A stretch of DNA of 64,000 nucleotides, from assembly GCF_003634935.1 (NCBI RefSeq), contig NZ_RBXO01000001.1, positions 7,031,501 to 7,095,500 of the forward strand. The letters run 5' to 3'. Under the pieces are notes generated by a model. It made no database searches, was not told the origin of the DNA, and saw nothing but the letters and a program-made list of their open reading frames with translations. Origin of the DNA: Saccharothrix australiensis (lineage in GTDB: Bacteria; Actinomycetota; Actinomycetes; Mycobacteriales; Pseudonocardiaceae). A program made the position numbers and the translations under genes. This document shows, one piece after another, positions 11,263-37,187 of the stretch (its first letter is position 1; each line of letters opens with the position of its first letter).

Positions 11263-12138
11263 TCAACCGAGTGGCGCAACCCGGACTCCCACCTCGTCCA
11301 CCGGGACGTGGTGCGTCGTGAACCCGCTCAGGTCCACCCCTTCGGGTGGTTTGCCGTCCTCCGGAAGGGCCAGCACGGTCGGTCCCGCGCCCGACACCGC
11401 CGCCGGCACGCCCGCCGCCCGCAACGCCCTGACCAGCGCCGACGTGGCCGGCCAGGCCGGTTCCCGGTACGGTTCGTGCAGCCGGTCGTCCAGCGCGGCG
11501 AGCAGCAGCGAGGGGTCCGCGGTCAGCGCGTGGACGGCCAGCGCGGCCCGCCCGGCGGCGAACGCCGCGTCGGCGTGCGGCACCGATCCGGGCAGCAGAC
11601 CGCGCGTGGTCTTCGTCGCGGACATCTGTTCGGGAACCAGCACCACGGGCGCGAGCGCGGGGTGCGGGTCCAAACGCACCGCGTGGAAGCCGTCACCCTG
11701 CGTCCACGCCACCACGACGCCGCCGAACATCGCGGCGGCGGCGTTGTCGGCGTGGCCCTCGAACTCGGCGGCGAGTCGCAACGCGGTCGTGTCCAACTCG
11801 TGCCCGGCCAGCGCGTATCCGGCCGCCACGCCCGCCACGACGGCCGCCGACGAGGAGCCGAGGCCGCGCGCGTGCGGTATCGCGTTCCGGCACCGCAGGC
11901 GCAGGCCCGGCACGTCCACCCCCAACCGGGCGCACGCCGCCCGGAACGCCCGGACCACCAGGTGCGACTCGTCGTCGGGCACGCCGGCCGCGCCCTCGCC
12001 GGACACCTCGATCACCAGCCCGGACGGCGCGACCTCGAACTCGACCTCGTCGTGCAGCCCCAGGGCCAGCCCGAGCGCGTCGAACCCGGACCCGAGGTTC
12101 GCGCTGGACGCCGGGACGGTGACCCGGACGCCCGTCAC
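11263..12138 (-). CDS. thrB: Homoserine kinase
   Basis: This 291-residue GHMP-family kinase phosphorylates homoserine at the last-but-one step of threonine synthesis. The N-terminal [19 protein letters not shown] is the family signature, the phosphate loop is [15 protein letters not shown], and the C-terminal motif is [16 protein letters not shown] 12138 overlaps the thrC stop by four bases (GTGA), so the two are translationally coupled. It is the last gene of the argS-lysA-hom-thrC-thrB operon. Confidence 0.97.
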
Positions 12139-13238
12139 GCGAGGTCCAGCGCCGTGGCGACCGCGCCGGGGTCGACCGGCACCGGCTCGACCTCGGCCAT
12201 GCCCAGCAGCGCCGTGTCGGGGTCCTTCAGGCCGTGGCCGGTGACCGTGCAGACGACCACGGAGCCCCTGGGCAGCCGGCCGTCGGCGGCGGTGGCGAGC
12301 AGGCCCGCGACGCTGGTCGCGGACGCGGGCTCCACGAAGATGCCGTCCCGCGCCGCGAGCAGGCGGTACGCCTCCAGGATGCGCTCGTCCGCGACCGCCT
12401 CGAACAGGCCGCCGGACTGCTCCTTGGCGGTCACCGCGCCGGTCCACGACGCCGGGCTGCCCACCCGGATGGCGGTGGCGATGGTCTCCGGCTCCGCGAC
12501 CGGCGCGCCGAGCACGAGGGGCGCGGCCCCGGCGGCCTGGAACCCGAACATGCGCGGCGTCGAGCCGACCACGCCGTCGGTGGCGTAGTCGGTGTACCCG
12601 CGCCAGTAGGCGGTGATGTTGCCCGCGTTGCCGACCGGGAGGCAGTGGACGTCCGGCGCGCGGCCGAGCACGTCGCAGATCTCCCACGCGGCGGTCTTCT
12701 GGCCGATCAGCCGGACCGGGTTGACCGAGTTCACCAGCGTGATCGGGTACTCGACGGAGGTCTTGGACGCCAGTTCGAGGCAGTCGTCGAAGTTGCCGTC
12801 GATCTGGAGGATGCGCGCGCCGTGCGCGACCGCCTGGGCGAGCTTGCCGAGCGCGACCTTGCCGCGCGGCACCAGCACGGCCGCGGTGAGCCCGGCCTTG
12901 GCGGCGTAGGCGGCGGCGGACGCCGACGTGTTGCCCGTCGACGCGCAGATGACCGCCTTGATGCCGCTGGCCAGGGCGTGCGTCATGGCCACGGTCATGC
13001 CGCGGTCCTTGAACGAGCCGGTCGGGTTCGCGCCCTCGACCTTGATGTACACCTCGCAGCCCGTCACGTCGGACAGGTGGTCCGACGCCACCAGCGGCGT
13101 GCCGCCCTCGTGCAGGGTGACGACCCGCGCACCGGCCGGGAGCGGGACCCGGTCCGCGTAGGCGTGGATGATGCCGGGCCACCCCGGCCGCGCTGTCGTC
13201 CGGTTGTCGGCCCCGCCGAGGGTCACTTGCGCCGCCAT
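12135..13238 (-). CDS. thrC: Threonine synthase
   Basis: This 367-residue PLP enzyme converts O-phosphohomoserine to threonine. The PLP lysine is in the [12 protein letters not shown] motif, the phosphate-binding loop is the Gly/Asn-rich [11 protein letters not shown], and [18 protein letters not shown] is the usual N-terminal domain motif. It is the short, AdoMet-independent actinobacterial type. ATG 13238 shares one base with the hom stop codon (TGATG), showing translational coupling. Confidence 0.96.
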
Positions 13239-14563
13239 CACTCTTCGCCTTCCACCCGCATCACGCTGACCACTTCCCGTACCGCGGGCAGTCCGCCGAT
13301 CTTGTCCACGGTCGACCGCAGCGCCGCGTCGGTCGCGGCGTGGGTGACGATCACCAGGCTGGCGTCGTCGACCCGTCCCTCCTGCCGGACCGCGGCGATG
13401 CTCACGTCGTGCTCCGCGAACACCGCCGCGACCTGCGACAGCACACCTGGCCGGTCGGCCACGTCGAGGCTGATGTGGTAGCGGGTCGGCGCCTGGCCCA
13501 TCGGCCGCACGGGCAGCGCCGCGTACGCCGACTCGCGCGGGCCGCGCCCGCTGACCACCCGGTTGCGGGCCACGGCGACGAGGTCGCCGACCACCGCGCT
13601 GGCCGTGGGCGCGCCGCCCGCGCCCTGGCCGTAGAACATCATCTCGCCCGCCGCGTCGGCCTCCACGAACACCGCGTTGAACGCGCCGTGCACGCTGGCG
13701 AGCGGGTGCGTGCGGGGGATCATCGCCGGGTGCACGCGGACGGAGATGCTCTCCCCCGCGCCGTTGCCCGCGCCTGCCTGCTCGTCGGCGGCGCCGGTCA
13801 CGCGCTCGCAGATGGCCAGCAGCTTGACCGTGCGGCCGAGCGCCTTGGCGGCGGCGATGTCGGCCGCGCTCACCGACGCGATGCCCTCGCGGTGCACGTC
13901 GGCGGCGGTCACGCGGCTGTGGAACGCCAGCGAGGCCAGGATCGCGGCCTTGGACGCGGCGTCGTACCCGTCGACGTCCGCCGTCGGGTCGGCCTCGGCG
14001 TAGCCCAGGCGGGTCGCCTCCTCCAGCGTCTCCGCGTAGCTCGCGCCGGTGGAGTCCATGCCGGAGAGGATGAAGTTGGTGGTGCCGTTGACGATGCCCA
14101 TCACGCGGGTGATCCGGTCGCCGGCCAGCGACTCGCGCAGCGGGCGCAGCAGCGGGATCGCGCCCGCCACGGCCGCCTCGAAGTACAGGTCCGCGCCGCT
14201 CGCGTCGGCCGCCTGGAACAGCTCGCCGGAGTGCTCGGCGAGCAGCGCCTTGTTCGCCGTCACCACGGACTTGCCCGCGGCCAGCGCCTTGACCAGCCAC
14301 GTCCGCGCGGGCTCGATGCCGCCGACGACCTCGACGACGACGTCCACGTCGGACTCGACCAGCGCGTCGGCGTCCGTGGTGAGCAGCGCGGCGGGCACCT
14401 CGCGGTGCTTGTTCGGCTTGCGCACCGCGATACCGGCCAGCTCGACGGGCGCGCCGACGCGCGCGGTCAGGTCCGCCGCCTGGTCGGTCAGCAGCCGGAC
14501 CACCTCGGTGCCGACCGTGCCGCAGCCGAGCAGCGCGACTTTGATCGGTTTCTGGCCAGGCAC
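13238..14563 (-). CDS. hom: Homoserine dehydrogenase
   Basis: This 441-residue enzyme reduces aspartate semialdehyde to homoserine, the branch point to threonine and methionine. The NAD(P) loop is [13 protein letters not shown], the catalytic domain contains [11 protein letters not shown] and the D-G-Y-D-A-A-S-K segment with the active lysine, and residues from about 350 form an ACT domain that usually binds threonine as feedback inhibitor. The start is GTG 14563, one base after the lysA stop; the GGAGGT ribosome site lies within the last codons of lysA. Confidence 0.96.
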
Positions 14564-14564
14564 G

Positions 14565-15989
14565 TCATACCTCCAGGCGGAACAGGTCTTCCTCGGTCTC
14601 CCGGCGCAGCAGCAACCGGGACTGGCCGGCCTCGACCGCGGCGAGCGCGGGCCGGGGCAGCCGGTTGTAGCCGCTGGCCATCGAGTAGCAGTACGCGCCG
14701 GTCGCGGCGACCGCGATCAGGTCGCCGGGTGCGAGGTCGTCGGGCAGCCAGCAGTCGCGCACCACCACGTCGCCGGACTCGCAGTGCTTGCCCACCACGC
14801 GGCACAGCACGGCCGAGGAGTCCGGCTCGGCCTTGCGGGACACCAGCTTGCAGTCGTAGACCGCGTCGTACAGGGCGGTGCGGATGTTGTCGCTCATGCC
14901 GCCGTCCACGCTGACGTACCGGCGGATGGCGCCCGCGTCGAGCTGGACGTCCTTGATGGTGCCCACCTCGTACAGGGTGACCGTGCCGGGGCCGACGATG
15001 GCGCGGCCCGGCTCGACCGCGATCTTCGGCATGGGCAGGCCCGCGTGCTCGCACTCCTTGCCGACGATGTCCTTGAGCTGGCGCGCCAGCTCCGCGGGCG
15101 GCGGCGGGTCGTCGTCCGCCGTGTACGCGATGCCGAGCCCACCGCCGAGGTCCACGGTGGACACCTGGTCGAGGACCCCCGCGCCGTGCTCGTCGCGCAG
15201 CTCGGCGAGCAGGCCGACCACCCGGCGCGCGGCGACCTCGAACCCGCTGGCGTCGAAGATCTGCGAGCCGATGTGGCTGTGCAGGCCGATCAGGCGCAGC
15301 CCCTCGGACTTGAGCACCCGGCGCGCCGCCTCGGCCGCGTCGCCGGAGGACAGCGAGAAGCCGAACTTCTGGTCCTCGTGCGCGGTCGCGATGAACTCGT
15401 GGGTGTGCGCCTCGACGCCGACCGTGACCCGGATCATCACCGGCTGCACCCGGCCGCGGTCGCGCGCGACCTGGTCCAGGCGGGCGATCTCGTGGAACGA
15501 GTCGAGCACCACCGCGCCGACGCCCGCCTCGACCGCCGAGACCAGCTCGGCGACGGACTTGTTGTTGCCGTGCAGCGCGATCCGCTCCGGCGGGAACTCC
15601 GCGCGCAGCGCGATGGCCAGCTCGCCGCCGCTGCACACGTCGATGCTCAGGCCCTCCTCGGCGACCCAGCGGGCCACCGCGACGGACAGGAACGCCTTGG
15701 ACGCGTAGTGCACCTGCGCGGGGTCGCCGAACGCCTCCGCGTGGTCCCGGCAGCGGGACCGGAAGTCGCCCTCGTCCATCACGAACAGCGGGGTGCCGTA
15801 CTCCTCGGCCAGCGCGCGGACGTCCACGCCGGCGAGCGCGACCGCGCCGTCCTCGCCGCGGGCGGCGTTGCGCGGCCACACGCGCGGGTGCAGCGCGTCG
15901 AGCGCCTCCGGGGTGGTGGGTCGCTGGCCCGCGGTGTTCGACGGGACCAGGACGTCGGCGTGCCGGGGACCGGCCGGGTGTGCCCTCAT
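14565..15989 (-). CDS. lysA: Diaminopimelate decarboxylase
   Basis: This 474-residue fold-III PLP enzyme makes lysine from meso-diaminopimelate. The PLP lysine is in [10 protein letters not shown], the phosphate loop is [15 protein letters not shown] binds cofactor, and the interface cysteine motif is [11 protein letters not shown] 15989 overlaps the argS stop (TGATG). The lysine made here would compete for aspartate semialdehyde with homoserine and with the diaminobutyrate route encoded at 27.8-34.5 kb. Confidence 0.97.
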
Positions 15990-17632
15990 CACATGCGCTC
16001 CGGTGCACTCACGCCCAGCAGGGCGAGGCCGTTGGCGAACACCTGTTTGGTGCTCGCGCACAACTGGAGGCGGGCGCGGTGCAACTCGGTCGTCTCCTCG
16101 TCACCGCGCGGCAGCACCCGGCACGCCTCGTAGAACCGGTGGTAGGTGCCCGCCAACTCCTCCAGGTACCGGGCGACCCGGTGCGGTTCGCGCAGCTCGC
16201 CTGCGGTGGCGATCACGCGCGGGAACTCGCCGATGGTGCGGATCAGGTCACCCTCGCGGTCGTGGTCGAGCAGGTCGAACGCGTCGCCCGGCGTGACGCC
16301 CAGGTCGGCGGCGTTGCGCAGCACCGAGCAGATCCGGGAGTGCGCGTACTGCACGTAGAACACCGGGTTGTCGTTGCTGCGCTTGCGCAGCAGGTCCAGG
16401 TCGATGTCCAGCGTCGAGTCGGCCGACGATCGGGTCATCGCGTAGCGGGCGGCGTCGACGCCGACCGCCTCCACCAGGTCCTGCATGGTGATCACGGTGC
16501 CCGCGCGCTTGCTCATCCGCACCGGCTTCCCGTCGCTGACCAGGTTCACCATCTGCCCGATCAGCACCTCGACCGCGTTCGGGTCGTCGCCCACCGCGGC
16601 GGCGGCGGCCTTGAGCCTGCCGATGTAGCCGTGGTGGTCCGCGCCGAGCATGTAGATGCACAGGTCGAACCCGCGCGACCGCTTGTCCAGGAAGTACGCG
16701 ATGTCACCCGCGATGTAGGCCGGTTCGCCGTCGCTCTTGATGACCACGCGGTCCTTGTCGTCGCCGAACTCGGTGGACCGCAGCCACCACGCGCCGTCCT
16801 CGAAGTACAGGCCACCCGACTCCTTGAGCCGCGCGACGATCCCGGCGACCGCGCCGGACTCGTGCAGCGAGTTCTCGTGGAAGTACACGTCGAAGTCGGT
16901 GCCGAACTCGTGCAGGTCGCGCTTGATCTCGTCGAACATCAGCTGCACGCCGACCCGGCGGAACACCTCGTGGCTGTCCTCGGCGGACAGCGCGGTGGGC
17001 TCGCGCCTGAGCACCTCGGCGGCGATGTCGGTGATGTAGCCGCCCGCGTAGCCGTCCTCCGGGGCGGGCTCGCCCTTCGCGGCGGCGATCAGGGACCGGA
17101 CGAACCGGTCGATCTGCGCGCCCGCGTCGTTGAAGTAGTACTCGCGGGTCACGTCGCCGCCGTTGGCGGTCAGGATGCGCCCCAGCGCGTCGCCCACGGC
17201 CGCCCACCGGGTGCCGCCCAGGTGGACGGGGCCCGTCGGGTTCGCGGAGACGAACTCCAGGTTGATCCGGGTGCCCGCGAACTGGTCGCCGTGGCCGTAC
17301 CGGTCGCCGGCGGCGATGACCTCGCGGAGGATGTCGCCCTGCGCGTCGGCGGCGAGGCGCAGGTTCAGGAAGCCGGGACCGGCGACCTCGACCGACGCGA
17401 TCGCGTCCGTGCCGGTGAGCGCGTCGGCCAGCCAGCCGGCGAGGTCACGGGGCACGACACCGAGCTTCTTGGCGGTCTGGAGCGCCAGGTTCGTGGCGTA
17501 GTCGCCGTGCTCGGGGTTGCGGGGTCGCTCGATGGTCACCGCGGCGGGGAGGGCGGCGGGGTCCAGGCCGCGGGAGGACAGCACGTCCACGGCCGTCGCG
17601 CGGACCAGTTCAGCGAGCGCAGCGGGAGTCAC
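15989..17632 (-). CDS. argS: Arginyl-tRNA synthetase
   Basis: This 547-residue class I synthetase charges tRNA-Arg. The ATP-binding HIGH motif appears in its actinobacterial form [15 protein letters not shown] and the KMSKS equivalent is RMSKRAG. An N-terminal tRNA-binding domain and the C-terminal DALR anticodon domain ([10 protein letters not shown] onwards) are present. The start is GTG 17632. On the minus strand TAGACT (17644-17639) ends exactly six bases before the GTG, so the operon transcript is probably leaderless. Confidence 0.96.
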
Positions 17633-25005: not shown

Positions 25006-25163
25006 CGCGACCGCCGGCGAGCCACGGGCATCCCCCTCGCCGTCGATGCGGGGCGGCAATCCCACCGCCCCGGTCGCGACGCGGAAGAAGATCCATGATC
25101 TCTCCCCCACCGGCGTGCGTCCACGCCGGCATTGAACCGCGTCCGGGCACCCACGCCCGGACG
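25006..25163 (+). promoter_or_regulatory. Structured leader upstream of the RNA methyltransferase
   Basis: An 8-base closing stem (25006-25013/25071-25078) encloses two hairpins of 7 base pairs (25015-25021/25036-25042 and 25050-25056/25065-25071) in a three-way-junction-like layout; the last base of one and first of the other compete. Two more perfect hairpins follow: 8 base pairs (25110-25117/25122-25129) and 9 base pairs (25140-25148/25155-25163). The final arm reaches the first base of the GTG start codon. Confidence 0.45.
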
Positions 25164-26206
25164 TGACGACCGCGCGCCTGCTGGCGCGAACGGTACGCGG
25201 CGCGGAAACGCTGGCCGCACAGGAGATCCGCTCCCTGGGTGCGGTCGACCGCATCGCACACCGCGAGGTGTGGTGGACGTGCGACACCCCCGGTCCAGAG
25301 GTGCTGGACCTGCGCTGCGCGGACGACGTCTTCCTGGTGGCCGCCGAGGTGGGCGGCATCGGCCGCGCCAAGGCCGACCTCCGCCTGCTGGCGAAGGCGG
25401 CGGCGGCCGTGGACGCCGCGGCCCTGGTGTCCCGGCGGGCCGCGTTCGGCGCGGTCGACCGTCCGTCCACAATGGACGTCTCGGCGTCCTTCCTCGGCCG
25501 GCGCAACTTCACCCGGTACGACCTGGAGGACGCCGTCGGCGAACCCCTGGCCGCCGCGCTGGGCCTGCCCTACCGCAGCCGGCGGCACGGCACGCCGCCC
25601 GCCGGGCTGACGTGGCGGGTCACCGTCGCCGACGACCGGGCCGTCCTGGCGCTGCGGATCGCCGGGAGGCCCCTGCACCGCAGGGACTACCGGCGGGCCA
25701 CCCGGCCGGGCGCGCTGCACCCGCCGCTGGCCGCGGCGATGCTGCGGCTGGCCGACCCCGGCCCTGGCGCACGCCTGCTCGACCCGTTCTGCGGCAGCGG
25801 CACGATCCCGCTGGAGGCGGGCACACCGGGCGCGGTGGGCACCGACGCCGACCCGGCCGCCATCGCCGCCGCGACCGCCAACGGCGCGGGCCGGGGCGTC
25901 GCCTGGGCGGTGGCCGACGCGGGCCGGCTCCCGTTCCGCGCCGGCGCGGTCGACGTGGTGGTCACGAACCCGCCGTGGGACCGGCAGGTGCGGGCGGCCG
26001 GCGTGCTGGCCGCGCGCCCGCACCGCTTCTGGCACGAGCTGGCGAGGGTCCTGGCGCCCACCGGGCGGGCCGTACTGCTGCTCCCGGACGTCGACGACCA
26101 CCTGGCGCGGGCGGCCGGGGCGGGTCTGCGGCCGGTCGACCGCCGTCCGGTGAGCCTGTTCGGCCGGCACCCGGAGATCGTCACCATGACACGAGCAGGA
26201 GGTTGA
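25163..26206 (+). CDS. RNA guanine-N2-type methyltransferase (UPF0020/TrmN-like)
   Basis: This 347-residue protein has an N-terminal THUMP-like half (about 1-150, with SASFLGRRNFTRYDLEDAVG) and a C-terminal Rossmann methyltransferase. The SAM loop is LLDPFCGSGTIPLE and the catalytic motif IV is TNPPWDRQV, the N-P-P-W form typical of base-amine RNA/DNA methyltransferases. Members of this family modify tRNA position 6 or 23S rRNA guanines. The exact target cannot be read from sequence. GTG 25163 follows a structured leader. The 3' end overlaps a convergent small gene by 26 bases. Confidence 0.85.
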   Translation: MTTARLLARTVRGAETLAAQEIRSLGAVDRIAHREVWWTCDTPGPEVLDLRCADDVFLVAAEVGGIGRAKADLRLLAKAAAAVDAAALVSRRAAFGAVDRPSTMDVSASFLGRRNFTRYDLEDAVGEPLAAALGLPYRSRRHGTPPAGLTWRVTVADDRAVLALRIAGRPLHRRDYRRATRPGALHPPLAAAMLRLADPGPGARLLDPFCGSGTIPLEAGTPGAVGTDADPAAIAAATANGAGRGVAWAVADAGRLPFRAGAVDVVVTNPPWDRQVRAAGVLAARPHRFWHELARVLAPTGRAVLLLPDVDDHLARAAGAGLRPVDRRPVSLFGRHPEIVTMTRAGG

Positions 26207-27803: not shown

Positions 27804-29084
27804 ATGAAGAATTGTTCGGAGCCGGCCACAACGGCCGAGTCCCGGCCGGTGCGGGACCGCACCGGCGAATTTCCGGGCGGCCTGGTCGTCCGCAAGTACG
27901 GCGGTTCGTCGTTGGCCACGCCCGAGCGGGTGCGGAACGTGGCCGGCGCGTTGGCGGCGCTGGCCGCCGAGGGCAGGCAGGTCGTCGTGGTCGTCTCCGC
28001 GATGGGCGACACCACCGACGAACTGGTCGCGCTGGCGGGCGAGTTCGCCGACCTGCCGGAAGCGCGGGAGATGGACCAGCTCATGGCCACCGGCGAGCAG
28101 GTGTCGGCCGCGCTGCTCGCGATGGCCCTCAACCAGCTCGGGGTGAGCGCCGGGTCGCTCGCGGGCGACCAGGCTGGGATCGTCGTCGGCGGTCGCCCCG
28201 GCGCGGGTGTCATCGAGTGGATCGACACGCACCGCATCGTGGAACGGTTGCGGCACTGGCAGGTCGTGGTCGTGGCGGGCTTCCAGGGCCGCACCCGCGA
28301 CGGCGAGCTGCTCACGCTGGGACGCGGCGGCTCGGACACCACCGCCGTCGCCCTCGCCGCCGCGCTGGGCAGCGCGGACTGCGAGATCTGCACGGACGTC
28401 CCCGGCGTGCACACGGCCGACCCGCGCGTGGTGCCGGGCAGCAGGCGGCTGGAGACCGTGCCGTACGACGTGATGACCGAACTCGCCGCGCGCGGCGCGA
28501 AGGTCCTGCACCCGAGGTCGGTCGCGCTGGCGGCCCGCCACGAGGTGCGGGTGAGCGTCGTGCACTCGGCCTGGCAGGTGCCCGGCACCATCGTCGCGGA
28601 CGAACCGCTGGAGGCCGGCCACCGCGTAGTCGGCATCGCCCACGAGCGTGACGTCCGACTGGTGTCGCTCACCCTGACCGGGGCCCGGCCGGGCCGGTCC
28701 GTGCCGGCGCTGGCCCGCCTCGTCGAGCGCGGCCTTCACCCGGACGTGCTGACCTGGCGGGACCACCACGAAGTGCGGTTCACCGTTCGCGGGCGTACAC
28801 CGGTTGACGTGATCGAGGAAGTCGCGCGGGACCTGGACGCGAAGTGGGCGGTGGAGGACGACCTGGGCGCCGTCTCCGTCGTCGGGGTCGGGTTGTTCGA
28901 CCACCCCGGTTACCTGGAGGGGACGCTGCGGGCGGTCGGCGGGCTGGGCGTCGCCCCGACCGCGTTGACGACGTCGCCGTCCCGGTTCACCGCCGTGCTG
29001 CCCGTCGCCCTCGTGGACGCGGCGGTGCGCGCGCTGCACGAGGCGTTCGGACTCGGTGTGCCCGCGGCCGGGGTCGGCCGGTGA
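27804..29084 (+). CDS. Aspartokinase dedicated to the diaminobutyrate polymer operon
   Basis: This 426-residue enzyme phosphorylates aspartate, the first step toward aspartate semialdehyde. The kinase motif VVRKYGGSSLATPERV is at residues 28-43, with GRGGSDTTAVALAAALGSADCEICTDVPGV in the catalytic domain. The C-terminal third holds two ACT-like regulatory segments (RDVRLVSLTLTG; DDLGAVSVVGVGL). ATG 27804 has AGGGGA seven bases upstream. The stop overlaps the next start by four bases (GTGA). Placement with a Pls-like synthetase suggests a pathway-specific, possibly feedback-relaxed isozyme. Its effector sensitivity cannot be judged from sequence alone. Confidence 0.92.
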   Translation: MKNCSEPATTAESRPVRDRTGEFPGGLVVRKYGGSSLATPERVRNVAGALAALAAEGRQVVVVVSAMGDTTDELVALAGEFADLPEAREMDQLMATGEQVSAALLAMALNQLGVSAGSLAGDQAGIVVGGRPGAGVIEWIDTHRIVERLRHWQVVVVAGFQGRTRDGELLTLGRGGSDTTAVALAAALGSADCEICTDVPGVHTADPRVVPGSRRLETVPYDVMTELAARGAKVLHPRSVALAARHEVRVSVVHSAWQVPGTIVADEPLEAGHRVVGIAHERDVRLVSLTLTGARPGRSVPALARLVERGLHPDVLTWRDHHEVRFTVRGRTPVDVIEEVARDLDAKWAVEDDLGAVSVVGVGLFDHPGYLEGTLRAVGGLGVAPTALTTSPSRFTAVLPVALVDAAVRALHEAFGLGVPAAGVGR

Positions 29085-32000
29085 GCCCGCGGGACGCGCC
29101 CGTCGGTGTCGTCGCCGACGGGCGGGTGTTGACCTGCGGTGGTTTCGACCAGGCGCCCCGGTGGCGGGAGGGCGAGCGCCTGGAGACGGTGTTCGAGCAG
29201 CACTGCGACGCGGCGGCCGACCGGCTCGCGGTGGACGCGGGCGACCTGCGGTTGACGTTCGGGGAGCTCGACGCGTGGGCCAATCGCCTGGCGCGGCACC
29301 TGCGGGCGGTGGGTGTCGCGCCGGGCGACCGGATCGGCCTGCTGTTCGACCGCCCGGCGCACGCGTACGTCGGGATGCTCGCGGTGCTCAAGGCGGGCGC
29401 GGTGTACGTGCCGCTGGACACGGCGTTCCCCGACGACCGGTTGGCCTACATCCTGGGCGACGCCGACGTGCGGCGCGTGCTGTCGGTGTCGTCGCTGCGG
29501 CACCGGCTGCCCGTCGAGGCGGTGTGCCTGGACGAGGTGGAGTCCGCCGTCGCCGCGCTGCCCGCGCACCGGTTGACGCCGGAGGAGCGGGGCGACCCGC
29601 CCGACGGGCTGTGCTACGTCGTCTACACGTCCGGCTCCACCGGGCGGCCGAAGGGCGTCACCGTCGAGCACTCCGCGATCTGCAACTTCGTCCGCGTGGC
29701 GGTCGAGGTGTACGGGATCGAGCCCGGCGACCGGATGTACCAGGGCATGACGATCGCCTTCGACTTCTCGGTCGAGGAGATCTGGGTGCCGCTGCTGTCC
29801 GGCGCGACGCTCGTGCCGAAACCCGCCGGCGCGGCGCTGCTCGGCCACGAGCTGTGGGAGTTCCTGCTGGACCGGCACGTCACCGCGCTGTGCTGCGTGC
29901 CGACGCTGCTCGCGACGATCGACGAGGACCTGCCGGACCTGCGCTTCCTGCTGGTGTCCGGTGAGGCGTGCCCGGAGGACCTGGTGGCCCGCTGGCACCG
30001 GCCGGGCAGGCGGTTCCTCAACGTCTACGGCCCCACCGAGGCGACGGTCACGGCGACCTGGGCGGTGGTGCGACCGGACTGCCCGGTGACCATCGGCGTG
30101 CCGCTGCCGACGTACTCGGTGGTGGTGCTCGACCCGGACGAGCCGCGCGTGCTGGACCGGGGCGAGGCGGGCGAGCTGGGCATCGCCGGCATCGGCCTGG
30201 CGACGGGCTACCTCAACCGGCCGGACCTGACCGAGCGCGCGTTCGTGCCGGACTTCCTGGGCGTCGAGCACAACCCGTCGGGCCGCATCTACCGCACCGG
30301 CGACCTGTGCCGGATCGACGAGGCCGGCGAGGTCGAGTACCTGGGCCGGATCGACACGCAGGTGAAGATCCGGGGCTACCGGGTGGAGCCGACCGAGATC
30401 GAGTCGGTGCTGCTGCGCGTGCCCGGCGTGGCGCAGGCGGTGGTGGAGCCGTACCGACCGGACGCGGGCACGGTCGAGCTGGTCGCGTACTACAGCCTGC
30501 GCCAGGGCGCGGCCGACCCCGGCGCCGCCGAGATCTACCGGCGGCTGCGGGAACGCCTGCCCTCGTACATGGTGCCCGCGTACCTGGAGCCGCTCGACCT
30601 GGTCCCGATGACACCGGCGGGCAAGGCGGACCGGCGCAACCTGCCGCCACCCAGGTCGGCGCGGACGCTGGCGTCCGACCGGCCCCACGTCGCGCCCGCG
30701 AACGCCGTCGAGCGCGTGCTGGCCGAGGCGCTGGCGGACGCGGTGCGCGTGGACCGGGTGTCGGTGGACAGCGACTTCTTCACCGACCTCGGCGCGGATT
30801 CCCTGCTGCTGGCCCGGTTCTGCGCCAAGGTGCGGCAGCGGACCGAGCTGCCGCCGATCGCCATGCGCGACGTGTACCGGCACACCACCGTGCGCGCGCT
30901 GGCGGCGACGCTGTCCGGGCCGCCGGCCGAGGCCGTGCGGGTCGGTCGCACGCACCGGGCGGGCACCGCGCGGCACCTGCTGTGCGGCTTCGCGCAGGTC
31001 CTGGTGTTCCTCGCCTACGCATGCGGGCTGGGCCTGCTGCTGGAGGCGGGCTTCGAGTGGATCGGCGGCGCACAGGGGCTCGGCGCGCTGTACGTGCGGT
31101 CGGTGGAGGTCGCGGTCGTCGCGTTCGCGATCCTGTCCGCGCTGCCGATCGCGGCGAAGTGGGTGCTGATCGGCCGGTGGAGACCTCGGCGCATTCCGTT
31201 GTGGGGCTGGGGCTACCTGCGGTTCTGGACGGTCAAGGTGCTGATCCGCTTGAGCCCGCTGTCGCTGTTCGTCGGTTCGCCGCTGTACGTGCTCTACCTC
31301 CGGGCGCTGGGCGCGCGGATCGGGAAGGGCGTGCTGTTCCTGACCCGCAACCCACCGGTGTGCGCCGACCTGGTGACCGTCGGCGACGGGGCGGTGGTGC
31401 GCAAGGACTCCTACCTCAACGGCTACCGCGTCCGGGCGGGGATGCTGGAGACCGGCCGCGTCACCCTGGGCGAACGGGCGTTCGTGGGCGAGATGTCGGC
31501 GCTGGACATCGACACCACCATCGGTGCGGGCGGCCAGCTCGGGCACGCGTCCTCGCTGCACAGCGGGCAGACCGTCCCGGCCGGGGAGTCCTGGCACGGC
31601 TCGCCCGCGCAGAAGTCCACTGTGGACTACCGGGCGATCGGGAGCGGGACGCTGCCGCGCGGGCGGCGGGCGTTGTTCGGCGCGGCGCAGCTCCTCTTCC
31701 TGCTGCTGGTGCCGCTGCCCGCGGTGCTGGTGGCCACGGAGCTGGCCGTCGGCCTGTTCTACGCCGGCCCGCCGGACTTCACGAGCTGGGCCTTCTACCG
31801 GGGTCAGATCGTCGACTCGCTGCTGCTGTACTTCGGCGGGCTGCTGGCGGGGCTGCTCGTCGTGCTCACCGTGCCGCGCCTGATCACCCGGTTGCTGCGG
31901 CCGGGTCGCACGTACCCGCTGTACGGCTGGCGCTACTCGGCGCAGCAGGCGTTGTTCCGGCTGACGAACGTGCGGTCGCTCAACTACCTGTTCGGCGACA

Positions 32001-33106
32001 GCTCGGCCATCGTGCACTACCTGCGCGCCGTGGGTTACCGGCTGGGCGCGGTCGAGCAGACCGGGTCGAACTTCGGCGTGGAGGTCAAGCACGAGGCGCC
32101 GACGCTGTGCGCGGTCGGCGAGGGGACGATGGTGTCGGACGGGTTGTCCATGCTCAACGCGGACTTCTCCGACACGTCGTTCCGCGTGCGGGAGGTCACC
32201 GTCGCGCCGCGCGCGTTCCTCGGCAACAACATCGCCTACCCGCCGGGTGCGCGGGTCGGCGAGAACTGCCTGCTGGCGACGAAGGTGCTCGTCCCGCTGG
32301 ACGGCCCGGTCCGCAGCGACACCGGCCTGCTCGGCTCGCCCGCGTTCGAGATACCGCGGACGGTCCGGCGCGACACGGAGCTCGACGTCGCAGGCGGCAG
32401 GCGGCACGGCCTGGCGGCCAAGAACCGCCACAACACCGTCACCGCGCTGGTCTACCTGTTCGTGCACTGGCTCCAGGTGCTGGGCGTCGTGCTGATCAGC
32501 GTGGCCGCGGGCAGCCTGCACGACCGGTTCGGCTGGCTCGCCACGGCCGCGAACGTCGTGCTGGGCTTCGTCTTCTCGGTCCTGTTCCTGGTCCTCGCCG
32601 AACGCGCGGTGCAGGGCTTCCGCCCGTTGCGCCCGAGGTTCTGCTCGATCTACGACCCGGTCTTCTGGCGGCACGAGCGGTTCTGGAAGCTCAGCCCCGG
32701 TCGCTACCTGCTGCTGTTCGACGGCACGCCGCTGAAGAGCCTGCTCTGGCGCGCGCTGGGGGTGCGCATCGGCAGACGGGTGTTCGACGACGGCTGCGCG
32801 ATCCCGGAGAAGTCCCTGATCACCATCGGCGACGACTGCACGCTCAACGCGGGCAGCACCATCCAGGCGCACTCGTTGGAGGACGGCACGTTCAAGTCGG
32901 ACCACATCACCATCGGCGCGGGCGCGACGATCGGCACGGCCGCTTTCGTCCATTACGGAGCGACCATCGGAGATCACGCCGTCGTGGAGCCGGATTCGTT
33001 CGTCATGAAGGGTACCGAGGTGCCGACGAGGTCGAGGTGGCGTGGCAACCCCGCTGTAGAACTGACGGAGAACAGCGCGGAAGACACCGCGCGGAGGCGA
33101 TCATGA
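29081..33106 (+). CDS. Pls-type membrane poly-amino-acid synthetase (probable poly-2,4-diaminobutyrate synthetase)
   Basis: This 1341-residue single-module NRPS has the layout of Streptomyces epsilon-poly-lysine synthetase (about 1320 residues). The adenylation domain (about 30-525) has YTSGSTGRPKG, NVYGPTE and PAGKADR. A carrier domain has Ser574 in LGADSLL. Six membrane helices (about 633-660, 676-699, 863-896, 911-936, 1119-1145, 1150-1175) separate three soluble hexapeptide-like domains (about 700-862, 937-1118, 1176-1341). There is no condensation or thioesterase domain. Hand alignment to GrsA gives pocket residues D228 F229 E232 C271 L291 S293 V315 V323 T324 K515; Glu at the third position fits a side-chain amine. 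It is coupled by 4-base overlaps to both neighbours. Confidence 0.9.
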   Translation: MSPRDAPVGVVADGRVLTCGGFDQAPRWREGERLETVFEQHCDAAADRLAVDAGDLRLTFGELDAWANRLARHLRAVGVAPGDRIGLLFDRPAHAYVGMLAVLKAGAVYVPLDTAFPDDRLAYILGDADVRRVLSVSSLRHRLPVEAVCLDEVESAVAALPAHRLTPEERGDPPDGLCYVVYTSGSTGRPKGVTVEHSAICNFVRVAVEVYGIEPGDRMYQGMTIAFDFSVEEIWVPLLSGATLVPKPAGAALLGHELWEFLLDRHVTALCCVPTLLATIDEDLPDLRFLLVSGEACPEDLVARWHRPGRRFLNVYGPTEATVTATWAVVRPDCPVTIGVPLPTYSVVVLDPDEPRVLDRGEAGELGIAGIGLATGYLNRPDLTERAFVPDFLGVEHNPSGRIYRTGDLCRIDEAGEVEYLGRIDTQVKIRGYRVEPTEIESVLLRVPGVAQAVVEPYRPDAGTVELVAYYSLRQGAADPGAAEIYRRLRERLPSYMVPAYLEPLDLVPMTPAGKADRRNLPPPRSARTLASDRPHVAPANAVERVLAEALADAVRVDRVSVDSDFFTDLGADSLLLARFCAKVRQRTELPPIAMRDVYRHTTVRALAATLSGPPAEAVRVGRTHRAGTARHLLCGFAQVLVFLAYACGLGLLLEAGFEWIGGAQGLGALYVRSVEVAVVAFAILSALPIAAKWVLIGRWRPRRIPLWGWGYLRFWTVKVLIRLSPLSLFVGSPLYVLYLRALGARIGKGVLFLTRNPPVCADLVTVGDGAVVRKDSYLNGYRVRAGMLETGRVTLGERAFVGEMSALDIDTTIGAGGQLGHASSLHSGQTVPAGESWHGSPAQKSTVDYRAIGSGTLPRGRRALFGAAQLLFLLLVPLPAVLVATELAVGLFYAGPPDFTSWAFYRGQIVDSLLLYFGGLLAGLLVVLTVPRLITRLLRPGRTYPLYGWRYSAQQALFRLTNVRSLNYLFGDSSAIVHYLRAVGYRLGAVEQTGSNFGVEVKHEAPTLCAVGEGTMVSDGLSMLNADFSDTSFRVREVTVAPRAFLGNNIAYPPGARVGENCLLATKVLVPLDGPVRSDTGLLGSPAFEIPRTVRRDTELDVAGGRRHGLAAKNRHNTVTALVYLFVHWLQVLGVVLISVAAGSLHDRFGWLATAANVVLGFVFSVLFLVLAERAVQGFRPLRPRFCSIYDPVFWRHERFWKLSPGRYLLLFDGTPLKSLLWRALGVRIGRRVFDDGCAIPEKSLITIGDDCTLNAGSTIQAHSLEDGTFKSDHITIGAGATIGTAAFVHYGATIGDHAVVEPDSFVMKGTEVPTRSRWRGNPAVELTENSAEDTARRRS

Positions 33107-34464
33107 CGCAGACCACCCACCACCACCCGCTGGTCACCACCACCCTACCGGGCCCCCGCTCCGCCGAGTACCTGGACCACCAGGAGCAGTGGGAGTCCAA
33201 CGCGCGCAGCTACCCCCGCCGCCTGCCCATCGCGCTGGCGGAGGGTTTCGGCAGCTACGTCAAGGACGTCGACGGCAACGTCTTCATCGACTTCCTGTGC
33301 GGCGCGGGGGTGCTTTCCTTGGGCCACAACCACCCCGAGGTGGCCACCGCCGCCGCCGGCCACCTGCGCGTGCTCACCCACGCGCTGGACTTCCCCACGC
33401 CCGCGAAGCGCGAGTTCCTGGACGCCCAGCTGTCCATGCTGCCGGACGGCCTCCGCGACCGCATGAAGGTCCACTTCTGCGGGCCGACCGGCGCCAACGC
33501 GGTGGACGCGGCCGTGAAGCTGTGCAAGACCGCCACCCGGCGCGGCAACGTGGTGTCGTTCCAGGGCGGCTTCCACGGCTCGTCGCACGCGGCGATGGCG
33601 CTGTCCGGCCTGGTGTCGCAGAAGGAGCCGATCGCCGACGGCGTGCCCGGCGTCCACTTCTTCCCGTACTCGTACTGCGCCCGGTGCCCGCTGGGCCTGG
33701 CGCCGGACTCGTGCGAGACGAACTGCGCCAACCTGCTGGAGCGGTCGCTCCGGGACCCCAACGGCGGCATAGCGAAACCGGCCGCGGTGGTGCTCGAACT
33801 GGTGCAGGGCGAAGGCGGCGTGATTCCGGCCCGGCGCGACTTCGTGCGCCGCATCCGGTCGCTGACCCAGGACCTCGACATCCCGCTCGTGGTGGACGAG
33901 GTCCAGACCGGTTGCGGTCGCACCGGCACCTGGTTCGCCTTCGAGCAGTACGACATCGAGCCGGACGTGATCGTGGCGTCGAAGGCGTTGAGCGGTATCG
34001 GGTTGCCGGTCGCGATCATCCTCTACGACCAGCGCCTGGACACCTGGCTGCCGGGCGCGCACACCGGCACGTTCCGGGGCAACCAGGCGGCGTTCGCGGC
34101 GGGCGCGGAGACGGTGAAGGTCTTCCGGCGCGACAACGTGCTGGAGAACGTCCGCCGGCGGGGCGACCAGCTGCGGTCCCGCCTCGCGACCCTCGACGAC
34201 CACCCGTGGGTGCACGAGATCCGCGGGCGTGGCCTGATGTGGGGCATCGAGCTGGCCGACCCGGCCACCAAGGCGCCGGCGGGCGCGCAGGCGTCGGCCG
34301 TCCAGTCCTACGCGCTGCACCAAGGGCTGATCATCGAGCTGGGCGGGCGGGACGACTCGGTGGTCCGCCTGATGCCGCCGCTGAACGTGGCGGAAGAGGT
34401 GATCGACCAGGCGGCGGCCATCATCGTGGAGGCGATCGAGAAGTCCTGCCCGGTCCAAGCCTGA
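33103..34464 (+). CDS. dat: L-2,4-diaminobutyrate:2-oxoglutarate aminotransferase (class III, PLP)
   Basis: This 453-residue aminotransferase converts aspartate semialdehyde plus glutamate to L-2,4-diaminobutyrate. Fold-I class III signatures are present: FLCGAGVLSLGHNHPEV, CGPTGANAVDAAVKL, the PLP aspartate in PLVVDEVQTGCGRTG, and the Schiff-base lysine K294 in IVASKALSG. A CxxC and CxxxC cysteine set (residues 192-208) is typical of this subgroup. ATG 33103 overlaps the synthetase stop (ATGA) with GGAGG upstream. With the aspartokinase it would supply the synthetase with diaminobutyrate; a general aspartate semialdehyde dehydrogenase must come from elsewhere. Confidence 0.9.
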   Translation: MTQTTHHHPLVTTTLPGPRSAEYLDHQEQWESNARSYPRRLPIALAEGFGSYVKDVDGNVFIDFLCGAGVLSLGHNHPEVATAAAGHLRVLTHALDFPTPAKREFLDAQLSMLPDGLRDRMKVHFCGPTGANAVDAAVKLCKTATRRGNVVSFQGGFHGSSHAAMALSGLVSQKEPIADGVPGVHFFPYSYCARCPLGLAPDSCETNCANLLERSLRDPNGGIAKPAAVVLELVQGEGGVIPARRDFVRRIRSLTQDLDIPLVVDEVQTGCGRTGTWFAFEQYDIEPDVIVASKALSGIGLPVAIILYDQRLDTWLPGAHTGTFRGNQAAFAAGAETVKVFRRDNVLENVRRRGDQLRSRLATLDDHPWVHEIRGRGLMWGIELADPATKAPAGAQASAVQSYALHQGLIIELGGRDDSVVRLMPPLNVAEEVIDQAAAIIVEAIEKSCPVQA

Positions 34465-34468
34465 CCCG

Positions 34469-34514
34469 ACGGCGGTGAAGGGCCCGACCGGGTACCGGGG
34501 CCCTTCACCGCCGT
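34469..34514 (+). terminator. Terminator of the polymer operon
   Basis: Perfect 17-base arms (34469-34485/34498-34514) with a 12-base loop lie five bases after the aminotransferase stop. The remainder up to 34620 has no gene; a short CRISPR-repeat-like palindrome near 34536 occurs only once. Confidence 0.85.
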
Positions 34515-34620
34515 TCGTCGCATGTCAGCGAGTGTCTTCCCCCGCGCAAGCGGGATCCCGGTTCCAGGGCCGCACGCCGGCCTCCGCGTCACCCGGCGGG
34601 GAACGGCCCCGGATCGAGCG

Positions 34621-36282
34621 TCACCCCACCTCCCGCGCGATCACGCGACCCGCCGTCCGACCCGAGAAGATGCAGCCCCCGAGGAAGGTGCCCTCCAGCG
34701 CGTGGTGGCCGTGCACCCCTCCCCCGCCGAACCCCGCCACCTCACCGGCCGCGTACAAGCCGTCGAAGACCGTCCCGTCCCGTCGCACCACCTGCGAGTC
34801 GAGGTTGGTCTGCACGCCGCCCAACGTCTTGCGGGTCAGCACGTGCAAGCGGATCGCGAACAGGGGGCCGCGGGCCGGGTCCAGGACGCGGTGCGGGCCG
34901 GAAGTCCGCGTGATCCGCTCCGGCAGGTACGCGCGCACGTTGCGCAGGGACATCAGTTGCATGTCCTTCGAGTAGTCGTTGCGCACCTGGAGGTCGCGGG
35001 CCACGACCTCACGCTCCACCCGCGCCGGGTCCAGCGGCGCCTCGGGGGTAAGCGCGTTCATCGCGCCCACCAGCTCCGGCAGCGTCGGGCGGACCACGAT
35101 GTCCGGCCCCCGTTCCAGGAACGCGCGCACCGTCGGCATCAGGCTCTTCCTCGCCCGCAGCACCAGCAGCGCGCAGTTCTTCCCCGTCAGGTCCGGGTTC
35201 TGCTCCGAACCCGACAGGTCGAACTCCTTGTCCACCATCGACTTCGTCATGATCAGCCACGAGTGGGGGTGGCCGCTGGTCGCCACGTGCCGCAGCGCCG
35301 CCAGCTCGGTGTGGCCGGGGAACAGCGGCGGCGGCAGGCGGCGGCCCGTCGCGTCCAGCCACAGCGGTGACGGGCCGGGCAGGAAGTGCACCCCGTGGCG
35401 GGGCCAGACGGGGCTGTGGTTGCGCAGCCCGGTGGAGTAGTGCCACATCCGGTCCAGGTTCACCACCGACGCGCCGGCGCGCCCGGTGATGCCCAGCATC
35501 CGCCCGTCGACGTGCGCGGGCACCCCGCTGAGCATCGACCTCGGCGCGGGCCCGAGCCGGTCGGTCGGCCAGTGCGCCCGCACCAGGTCGTGGTTGCCGC
35601 CCAGGCCGCCCGAGGTGACCAGGACCGCCTGCGCCCGCAGCTCGAACGCGCCGACCTCCTGGCGCGACGACGGCACGCCGCGCGGTTCGTCCGAGGGGAC
35701 CAGCACCGCGCCGCGCACGCCGACCGCGGCGCCGCCCTCGACGACGACCTCGTCCACCCGGTGCCGGTACGCGAAGGTCACGAGCCCGCGCGCGGCGGCG
35801 TCGAGCACCGGGTCGCGGAAGATCCGCACCAGCTCGGGCCCGGTGCCCCAGGTGTAGTGGAACCGGGGTACGGAGTTGCCGGGACCGGTCGCGGCGCCCT
35901 CCCCCCGTTCGTGCCACCCGACGAGGGGCAGCAGGCTCAGGCCGCGCCCCATCAGGTAGCTGCGCTTGTCGCCGGCGGCGAAGTGCACGTACGCCTCGGC
36001 CCACGCCCGCGCCCAGCGGTCCTCGGGACCGCGGTCGAACCCCGCCGAGGCCAGCCAGTCGGACAGCGCCAGCTCGGGCGAGTCCTCGATGCCCACGCGC
36101 CGCTGCTCGGGGCTGCCGACCAGGAACAGGCCGCCCTGCGACCAGTGCGCCTGGCCGCCGAGGTTGGCCTCGTTCTCCTGCTCGACGACGTGCACCCGCC
36201 GCCCGGCCCTGGTCAGCTCGTAGGTCGCGACCAGGCCGGCCAGTCCCGCGCCGACGACGATGACGTCCGCGACGTCGCTCAT
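34621..36282 (-). CDS. FAD-binding dehydrogenase, 3-ketosteroid dehydrogenase-like
   Basis: This 553-residue flavoprotein has an N-terminal dinucleotide fold DVIVVGAGLAGLVATYELTRAG followed by an acidic strand end (VVEQE) and GGQAHWSQGGLFL. The C-terminal FAD-closing motif is GLYAAGEVAGFGGGGVHGHHALEGTFLGG. This belongs to the fumarate reductase/KstD superfamily subgroup common in actinobacteria and usually annotated FAD-binding dehydrogenase. The true substrate is unknown. ATG 36282 overlaps the upstream hydrolase stop (ATGA), so the pair is co-translated. Confidence 0.88.
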   Translation of the reverse strand: MSDVADVIVVGAGLAGLVATYELTRAGRRVHVVEQENEANLGGQAHWSQGGLFLVGSPEQRRVGIEDSPELALSDWLASAGFDRGPEDRWARAWAEAYVHFAAGDKRSYLMGRGLSLLPLVGWHERGEGAATGPGNSVPRFHYTWGTGPELVRIFRDPVLDAAARGLVTFAYRHRVDEVVVEGGAAVGVRGAVLVPSDEPRGVPSSRQEVGAFELRAQAVLVTSGGLGGNHDLVRAHWPTDRLGPAPRSMLSGVPAHVDGRMLGITGRAGASVVNLDRMWHYSTGLRNHSPVWPRHGVHFLPGPSPLWLDATGRRLPPPLFPGHTELAALRHVATSGHPHSWLIMTKSMVDKEFDLSGSEQNPDLTGKNCALLVLRARKSLMPTVRAFLERGPDIVVRPTLPELVGAMNALTPEAPLDPARVEREVVARDLQVRNDYSKDMQLMSLRNVRAYLPERITRTSGPHRVLDPARGPLFAIRLHVLTRKTLGGVQTNLDSQVVRRDGTVFDGLYAAGEVAGFGGGGVHGHHALEGTFLGGCIFSGRTAGRVIAREVG

Positions 36283-37187
36283 GACGGTTCTCCACCTCCG
36301 CTCGGGTCGCCGTCGACGGCGGGGACGCCGTCGAGGAAGGGTCGGACGGCGGAGACCACCGCGCCGGGCGCTTCCAGCGGCAGCAGGTGGCTGGTCAGCG
36401 GGACCAGTCGCAGCCGCCCGCGCCGCAGCCGCCGCCGGGCCGCGATCCCCTGCCAGAACGGCAGTTGCCGGTCGTGGATCCCCCAGAGGACCAGGGTGGG
36501 CATGGGCAGGTCCCGCAGCCGGTCGAGGAGCGGGTCGCGCTGCCCGAACAGCCCCACGTGGACGCGTTGGGAGCGCAGGGTGGTGGCGAGCACCCCCGGC
36601 GTGGCGACGGCCTGGGCCTGGCTGGGCCACCAGCGCCGGGAGATGCGCCAGGGGCGGCAGGACCCCACCAGCGCCGTGCCGAGGACGAACAGCCGGGTGC
36701 TGTACGGCAGCAACGGGACCAGCAGCGGCGTCAGGTCGCCCAGCGGCGTCACGGACTGGAGGACCAAGGCCGGGTTGACGGCGCGCCCCATGCCGGCGGC
36801 GCTGATCAGCACCAGGGCCGGCACGTCGCCCGGCCGGTCCACCGCCGCGTGGACGGCGATCGCGCCGCCCAGGGAGTGCCCGACGAGCACCGGTCGCGCC
36901 AGGCCGAGGGTCCGCGCGAACCGCCACACGAACGCGGCGAACGCCGGGGCGGAGACGTCGGCGATCGGCTCGGTGTAGCCGAAACCGGGCAGGTCCAGGG
37001 CGATCACCCGGTAGTGGTCGGAAAGCGCTCCGATGACGTCGTACCACTGCTCGGCGACACCGCCCTCGCCCGGTATCAGCACGACCGGGTGCCCGCGACC
37101 GGCCTCCAGGTACCGGGTCGACGTCCCGTCCACGCTGGTCCAGTGCTCTGCCACGGCTCGCGCGCGCTCCGCGATGGGCGTGGTCAT
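36279..37187 (-). CDS. Alpha/beta hydrolase
   Basis: This 302-residue hydrolase has the nucleophile elbow VLVGHSLGGAIA, the acid in LVLWGIHDRQLPF and the histidine in PLTSHLLPLEAP, so the triad looks complete. The early PVVLIPGEGGVAEQWYDVI is the oxyanion segment. ATG 37187 is preceded by AGGAGGT. It is translationally coupled to the FAD dehydrogenase. The pairing recalls ring-degrading or steroid-like catabolic pairs, but no other pathway gene is adjacent. Confidence 0.88.
   Translation of the reverse strand: MTTPIAERARAVAEHWTSVDGTSTRYLEAGRGHPVVLIPGEGGVAEQWYDVIGALSDHYRVIALDLPGFGYTEPIADVSAPAFAAFVWRFARTLGLARPVLVGHSLGGAIAVHAAVDRPGDVPALVLISAAGMGRAVNPALVLQSVTPLGDLTPLLVPLLPYSTRLFVLGTALVGSCRPWRISRRWWPSQAQAVATPGVLATTLRSQRVHVGLFGQRDPLLDRLRDLPMPTLVLWGIHDRQLPFWQGIAARRRLRRGRLRLVPLTSHLLPLEAPGAVVSAVRPFLDGVPAVDGDPSGGGEPS

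Follow-up and report, generated by a model that had tools for sequence, protein, structure and literature searches.

A three-gene operon of Saccharothrix australiensis predicted to make gamma-poly-L-diaminobutyrate from its own precursor supply

Which product is made by a synthetase gene that is coupled to genes for an aspartokinase (Ask) and an aminotransferase was the question raised by one locus of Saccharothrix australiensis, analysed here within a window of 64,000 nucleotides (NZ_RBXO01000001.1, positions 7,031,501–7,095,500; coordinates are window-based). An earlier note on this DNA had proposed an operon for poly-diaminobutyrate with its own precursor supply, and this proposal was supported by the domain assignments, the adenylation pocket, the coupling of the genes and the recurrence of the two partner genes beside related synthetases. 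The operon is accordingly named below as the highly probable source of a cationic isopeptide homopolymer of L-2,4-diaminobutyrate (Dab), gamma-poly-L-Dab, as far as can be judged at the sequence level.

Gene content and predicted pathway

The genes are arranged in the order Ask–synthetase–Dat (Dab aminotransferase), with GTG as the start codon of the synthetase; the 4-base start/stop overlaps, GTGA and ATGA, and the gene coordinates were found to be exact. For the synthetase, 714.1 bits were obtained with the NCBIfam Pls/PosA domain TIGR02353 (cut-off 423), and Pfam returned AMP-binding (261 bits), PP-binding (43 bits) and AMP-binding_C (39 bits); the 6 Pfam families matched at E ≤ 0.001 include none for condensation or thioesterase domains. 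Hydropathy gave three pairs of strong segments (residues 632–659/666–698, 863–895/909–939 and 1119–1146/1150–1179) and one weak extra segment (720–738). Both scans and the hydropathy profile agree with the layout described before, i.e. adenylation (A) domain, carrier (T) domain and six helices without condensation or thioesterase domain. The A and T domains, the three-pair C-terminal polymerisation domain and a pocket that opens with Asp and has Glu as its third residue are the features of the Pls/PosA family.

The partner proteins passed the NCBIfam cut-offs for an aspartokinase (TIGR00657, 288.6 bits, cut-off 208.7) and a Dab aminotransferase (TIGR00709 'dat', 431.7 bits, cut-off 401.6), as had been predicted, and the aminotransferase does not fall outside the Dab families. 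The synthetase is thus adjoined by the two kinds of gene that accompany it in the poly-L-Dab cluster pldA-dat-ask. In the whole genome (7.86 Mb, 3 contigs), the Dat of the window was the only site above the 'dat' cut-off (next best score 225), and three aspartokinases, that of the operon included, scored above theirs.

In the proposed pathway, aspartate would be phosphorylated by Ask, probably without feedback by lysine and threonine, and the semialdehyde would be formed by an aspartate-semialdehyde dehydrogenase, presumably encoded elsewhere in the genome, outside the operon. Dat would convert aspartate semialdehyde to L-Dab, which the A domain would activate and load onto the T domain, and the C-terminal domain, predicted to be embedded in the membrane, would link the units through amide bonds between carboxylate and side-chain amine.

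The operon is followed by two complementary arms (34469–34485 and 34498–34514; 17 nt, 100% complementary, 12-nt loop), and folding of 34460–34530 as RNA gave −46.4 kcal/mol (z = −5.0; 0 of 200 shuffles equally stable). The perfect 17-base hairpin of the earlier note was hence recovered; its role as a terminator stays putative, because no T-run is present 3' of it.

Table 1. Features of the operon in the window
Feature	Position	Strand	Basis
Aspartokinase (Ask), pathway copy, degenerate regulatory ACT region	27804..29084	+	TIGR00657, ACT motif comparison
Start/stop overlap GTGA, Ask–synthetase	29081..29084	+	
Pls/PosA-family single-module synthetase: A, T, polymerisation domain with three hydrophobic segment pairs	29081..33106	+	TIGR02353, Pfam, hydropathy, pocket
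Adenylation-domain stretch spanning the ten pocket residues D228 to K515	29762..30625	+	computed from residue numbers
Start/stop overlap ATGA, synthetase–Dat	33103..33106	+	
Class-III aminotransferase, diaminobutyrate–2-oxoglutarate transaminase (Dat)	33103..34464	+	TIGR00709
Perfect 17-bp inverted repeat, probable hairpin terminator between convergent genes	34469..34514	+	no T-run

Pocket code and neighbouring genes

The ten pocket residues, at positions picked by motif after GrsA/PheA, are D228, F229, E232, C271, L291, S293, V315, V323, T324 and K515; re-reading returned the code read before by hand, DFECLSVVTK. In the PosA structure, Glu221 (position 3) contacts the side-chain amine, and this Glu is described as conserved throughout synthetases of this kind (PMC10522769). 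The claim that Glu at the third position suits a side-chain amine was therefore retained for amine recognition and given up as an indication of Dab, since the residue is common to all these synthetases. Position 2 is reported to track chain length, with Phe for diaminopropionate (Dap) and Dab, Met for ornithine and Ala for lysine (PMC10522769). The code alone was rejected as proof of Dab: it denotes a short diamino acid only, and the neighbouring genes must therefore tell which one. Narrowing to Dap or Dab by Phe at position 2, followed by selection of Dab by the partner genes, is supported.

To this end 139 loci were compared, 79 being best matches to the window and 60 coming from further genomes (59 picked by hand, one from another search); genes were called with the synthetase as training set, a synthetase of readable length was obtained from 127 loci, and the code table does not include L082b and L086b. 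A Dat-like gene was present in the available flanking DNA for 62 of the 77 synthetases with the code DFECLSVVT, 40 of them with a Dat that shares 60% identity or more with the window's and 22 with a second, less similar type; the one example of this type that was scanned, from L058, passed the ectoine EctB model (642, cut-off 552); Ask alone was found for two, and SbnA/SbnB-type Dap genes lay at one of the 77 loci. Among the code groups that have neither a racemase nor a Dat-like pocket, the next four had a Dat-like gene in 0/25 cases (DFEYLGTVT 0/14, DFECLGTVT 0/4, DAESIGTVV 0/4, DGESVSVVN 0/3), and for rarer codes the count was 3/3 for DFECLSVVS, 1/2 for DFECLSAVT and 0/2 each for DFEALGSVT and DFEALGTVT. 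Dat (59) and Ask (36) were the only widely recurring neighbours in 80 loci (the 79 and the window); as the next neighbour cluster occurred in just 11, further conserved flank genes were rejected. These counts tie the pocket code DFECLSVVTK to Dab-supply genes.

Several points weigh against the assignment to gamma-poly-L-Dab. The codes for Dap and Dab are called difficult to distinguish (PMC10522769). Neither Dat nor Ask was found in the available DNA for 13 of the 77 synthetases with the same code, some of which stand at contig ends, while others, among them three Actinomadura loci (L056, L064, L071), lack both despite 7-kb flanks. Of five more loci of this clade that come from Streptomyces, L239 and L241 likewise lack both; Dat and Ask accompany the synthetase at the remaining three, and the L239 genome carries a Dat in L247, its other cluster. 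The rows are moreover related, selection of the 79 loci was by best match to the window, and at least one pair, L081 and L138, is identical in sequence, so that the counts denote association and not independent events. The polymerisation domain of the window, finally, shares about 29% identity with its counterpart in the racemase-coupled type described below, so that linkage and length of the polymer are carried over by analogy.

Two features were noticed at other loci of the survey. A putative 4'-phosphopantetheinyl transferase, which would activate the carrier domain, was seen by eye near relatives of the synthetase at L083, L092, L093, L096, L099 and L106 (from the L083 protein). Codes DFEY(L/V/M/F/I)GTV or DFEC(L/M)GTV were found at L141, L151–L159 (except L160-type codes), L161–L163, L166, L168–L171, L189–L191, L248 and L250–L252, many followed by genes for an amidotransferase-like protein of about 219 amino acids and for a membrane protein (by eye); the available DNA at these loci gave neither Dat nor Ask nor SbnA/SbnB-type genes.

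Stereochemistry, polymerisation-domain lineages and rival products

The poly-D-Dab synthetase PddA of Streptoalloteichus hindustanus is described as coupled to a cofactor-free Dab racemase, PddB (motif cysteines 101 and 233), with PddC as dedicated Dat and PddD as dedicated Ask (PMC8225329). In the window, no PddB-like or DapF-like racemase was matched by tblastn (E ≤ 1e-3), and a genome-wide search with PF01678 returned a single DapF gene. Positive controls were provided by three of the 60 further loci (L134, L135, L172), where the synthetase is followed by a DapF-like gene; that of L172, with the full order synthetase–racemase–Dat–Ask, passed the DapF model (130, cut-off 115), and the two motif cysteines lie at 100 and 229 in L134, near those of PddB, and at 82 and 214 in L172 as called from a different start. 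The synthetases of the three loci have the code DFECLSCVSK and are 35–37% identical to that of the window, which, judged by these controls and not by PddA itself, is not of the racemase-coupled lineage. Because no Dab racemase was found in the window, poly-L-Dab is the predicted product, with L-Dab as the likely isomer.

The tree built from the carrier and terminal domains (T-C) of 43 proteins consists of two sets, and the branch between them measures 1.9 changes per site. The first holds the window, 12 other synthetases of the same clade, seven proteins without A domain (A-less) and three full-length proteins from SbnA-/SbnB-type loci, and L149; the second holds the lysine-type L184 and L253, the beta-lysine-type code, the DFEY/DFECLG types, the racemase-coupled type, L167 and a Streptomyces group (L244–L247, L249; codes DFECLSAV(T/S), order synthetase–Dat–Ask in 5/5). 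The window domain is 51–56% identical to six of the seven A-less proteins beside Dap-synthesis genes and 49% to the seventh, compared with 28–31% over long alignments to the lysine, beta-lysine and racemase-coupled types (40% at most in short pieces, over 113 columns). A tree with all Dat-linked synthetases in one group, which was defined with earlier trees already in view, was rejected (log-likelihood 507 lower, approximately unbiased (AU) test p ~1e-49). The two lineages agree at 42 positions with a conservation of 95% or more, and nine positions were fixed differently (e.g. 1291, H vs L); 106 were conserved in the window's lineage only and 31 in the other only. From the large tree of the surveyed loci, L009, L086, L086b, L148, L153, L177 and L181 were left out for degenerate, cut or unreadable A domains or as duplicates; of the redundant rows L012–L038, just L024 and L031 were kept.

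The two parts of L149 are placed differently: the tree of adenylation domains puts it among the remaining lysine-type rows, the T-C tree in the lineage of the window. A domains thus seem to have been transferred across lineages, and L149 looks like an A-domain swap. L147, L149 and L150 have a lysine-type code and are 44–47% identical to the window synthetase. A-less proteins of about 800–930 amino acids, with carrier and Pls terminal domains, were seen at L173, L174, L176, L182, L183, L185–L188, L192, L193 and L255–L257. In many cases another large protein and SbnA-like, SbnB-like and TauD-like genes lie next to them, and such A-less proteins may produce comb-like Dap polymers. The full-length proteins of L148 and L181, beside Dap-synthesis genes, have A domains that look degenerate (pocket Glu lost, GPTE motif altered), possibly a step towards the A-less form. 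Among the matches listed from 295 Streptomyces genomes drawn, most matches to the window synthetase span its carrier–terminal half only.

It is unlikely, in our estimate, that the operon makes a Dab product other than plain gamma-linked poly-L-Dab, such as an alpha-linked, branched, very short or capped one. Such a product would fit the grouping of the window's polymerisation domain with the A-less proteins, far from the lysine, beta-lysine and racemase-coupled types, the rejected single Dat-linked group and the nine positions fixed differently; the 42 positions held in common and the one NCBIfam domain passed by both lineages make the same chemistry the simplest reading. Tentatively, and with clearly less confidence than for gamma-poly-L-Dab as such, the locus may be regarded as a second, separately assembled route, in which a deep-lineage polymerisation domain, a Dab-type A domain, its own Dat and a feedback-deaf Ask of another origin than in other clusters were combined, and whose product may differ in linkage, branching or length.

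A monomer other than Dab (Dap, ornithine, lysine, beta-lysine or a mixture), with Ask and Dat serving another pathway, is considered very improbable. The poly-Dap synthetase of Streptomyces albulus PD-1 is reported to activate Dab and beta-lysine as well, more weakly than Dap (PMC4668381), which argues that such pockets are not strict, and as S. albulus keeps its SbnA/SbnB-type genes elsewhere in the genome, Dap could also be supplied in trans here. The translational coupling of the synthetase with Dat and Ask speaks against it, as do the lysine-type pockets, which read DAESIGTVVK, and the SbnA/SbnB-type genes, for which tblastn (E ≤ 1e-3) gave no match in the window and which were so rare among the same-code loci. 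Poly-D-Dab made with a racemase encoded elsewhere is hardly to be expected: the precursor genes would be the same as pddC and pddD, but PddB homologues are reported to be constantly adjacent to the synthetase gene (PMC8225329), the window gave no racemase match, the single DapF gene is the only one of its kind in the genome, and the racemase-coupled loci differ in code and lineage. Gamma-poly-L-Dab thus stays the preferred product.

Aspartokinases, genomic surroundings and known systems

Cluster and housekeeping Ask were compared in nine genomes, that of the window and eight relatives. The ACT motifs QN[VI]S and SEIR, which presumably take part in feedback by lysine and threonine, were present in 9/9 housekeeping copies and in 0/9 cluster copies, that of the window included; the latter also lacks six residues in the ACT region, and the cluster Ask of Streptomyces rugosispiralis has lost its first ACT repeat almost wholly. 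Both motifs were also missing in 2/2 copies of a third kind, which to our knowledge lie outside any known cluster of this type. The Ask of the window groups with these third-kind copies (support 100/98), and the two cluster copies from Arthrobacter fall beside the housekeeping genes of their own hosts (100/98), so that cluster Ask would have at least two origins. Motif loss only after joining clusters was rejected because of the third-kind copies, and in the Ask of the window it may predate capture. The operon Ask is probably free of lysine/threonine feedback.

All three genes recur in Saccharothrix tamanrassetensis (synthetase 84% identical, the nearest named relative), in two other genomes of the genus (83% and 80%) and in Amycolatopsis and Actinosynnema (65–66%). 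The operon as a recent insertion was dropped, as window 24430–26469 matches the left flank in S. tamanrassetensis; no right-flank match was found in the available DNA of that species, and a match at E ≤ 1e-150 was present in 3/25 genus genomes, with two candidates scored per genome. By Pfam, the operon has a methyltransferase gene upstream (25163–26206), and genes for an FAD-binding flavoprotein (34621–36282) and an alpha/beta hydrolase (36279–37187) downstream. The latter pair, on the minus strand with a 4-base overlap and convergent with the operon, had a near full-length DNA match in 5/25 genus genomes (its own included), the others matching in the flavoprotein part only, at about 67–73%. 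Further upstream, window 11263–17590 carries aspartate-family housekeeping genes, namely a homoserine dehydrogenase and a diaminopimelate/ornithine decarboxylase-type gene by Pfam, and homoserine kinase, threonine synthase and arginyl-tRNA synthetase by eye.

A second Pls-family synthetase (L184; G000:C1:4062644–4066327, at 4.06 Mb) has the code DAESIGTVVK, is 70% identical to the Streptomyces synthetase L253 of the same code and is followed, by gene calls, by an M1-family peptidase gene with a 4-base overlap. This locus is a probable poly-lysine cluster, and the strain may make poly-lysine as well as poly-Dab. Coproduction of poly-L-Dab with poly-lysine is reported in Streptomyces, where a reference title names S. 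celluloflavus (PMC8117764). The operon itself has Phe instead of Ala at pocket position 2 and no peptidase among the scanned neighbours; it shares family and domain layout with the epsilon-poly-L-lysine synthetase Pls of Streptomyces albulus, but differs from Pls/PldII in lacking the lysine-type pocket and peptidase partner that are both found at L184.

Closest in gene content is pldA-dat-ask, the gamma-poly-L-Dab cluster of Streptomyces celluloflavus, with a Pls-like synthetase, a diaminobutyrate transaminase and an aspartate kinase, whose legend names no racemase (PMC8117764); its genes are listed in the order pldA, dat, ask, unlike Ask–synthetase–Dat here. Placed by its published neighbours and not by its sequence, PldA may belong to the Streptomyces synthetase–Dat–Ask group, i.e. 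to the other lineage. A Corynebacterium Pls is reported as 33% identical to PldA (PMC8117764), and long alignments with a Streptomyces lysine-type synthetase gave 33–34% for the Streptomyces group and 29–32% for the window's lineage; as the reference enzymes differ, the 33% figure is a weak pointer to the same placement. With pddA-pddB-pddC-pddD the operon has a dedicated Dat and Ask in common; a PddB-like racemase, in contrast, was not matched in the window. Phe at pocket position 2 is shared with the poly-L-Dap synthetase and the systems for comb-like Dap polymers (PMC10522769). The polymerisation domain, too, groups with A-less proteins beside Dap-synthesis genes, although the window, unlike poly-Dap systems, has no SbnA/SbnB-type genes.

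Non-alpha poly-amino acids like poly-lysine are in use as a cluster class of their own, NAPAA (PMC11004387). For Dab polymers, the D form is described as antiviral and the L form as antifungal (PMC8117764), and an antimicrobial use of the present product may be supposed; the literature covered names one producing species for each form. No report of this Saccharothrix operon was found in open-licence literature. We know of no biochemically characterised member of the window's polymerisation-domain lineage, and relatives in the plasmid collection included none marked as characterised among 30 of 567 records listed. The kind of cluster is already published (pldA-dat-ask, pddA-D), and the operon is largely an ordinary further example, which adds a predicted poly-L-Dab producer that also bears a lysine-type cluster. 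Beyond the routine are the separate lineage of the polymerising domain and the recruitment, at least twice, of an Ask without the usual ACT motifs. With the two polymerisation-domain lineages set apart, their products are open to direct comparison.

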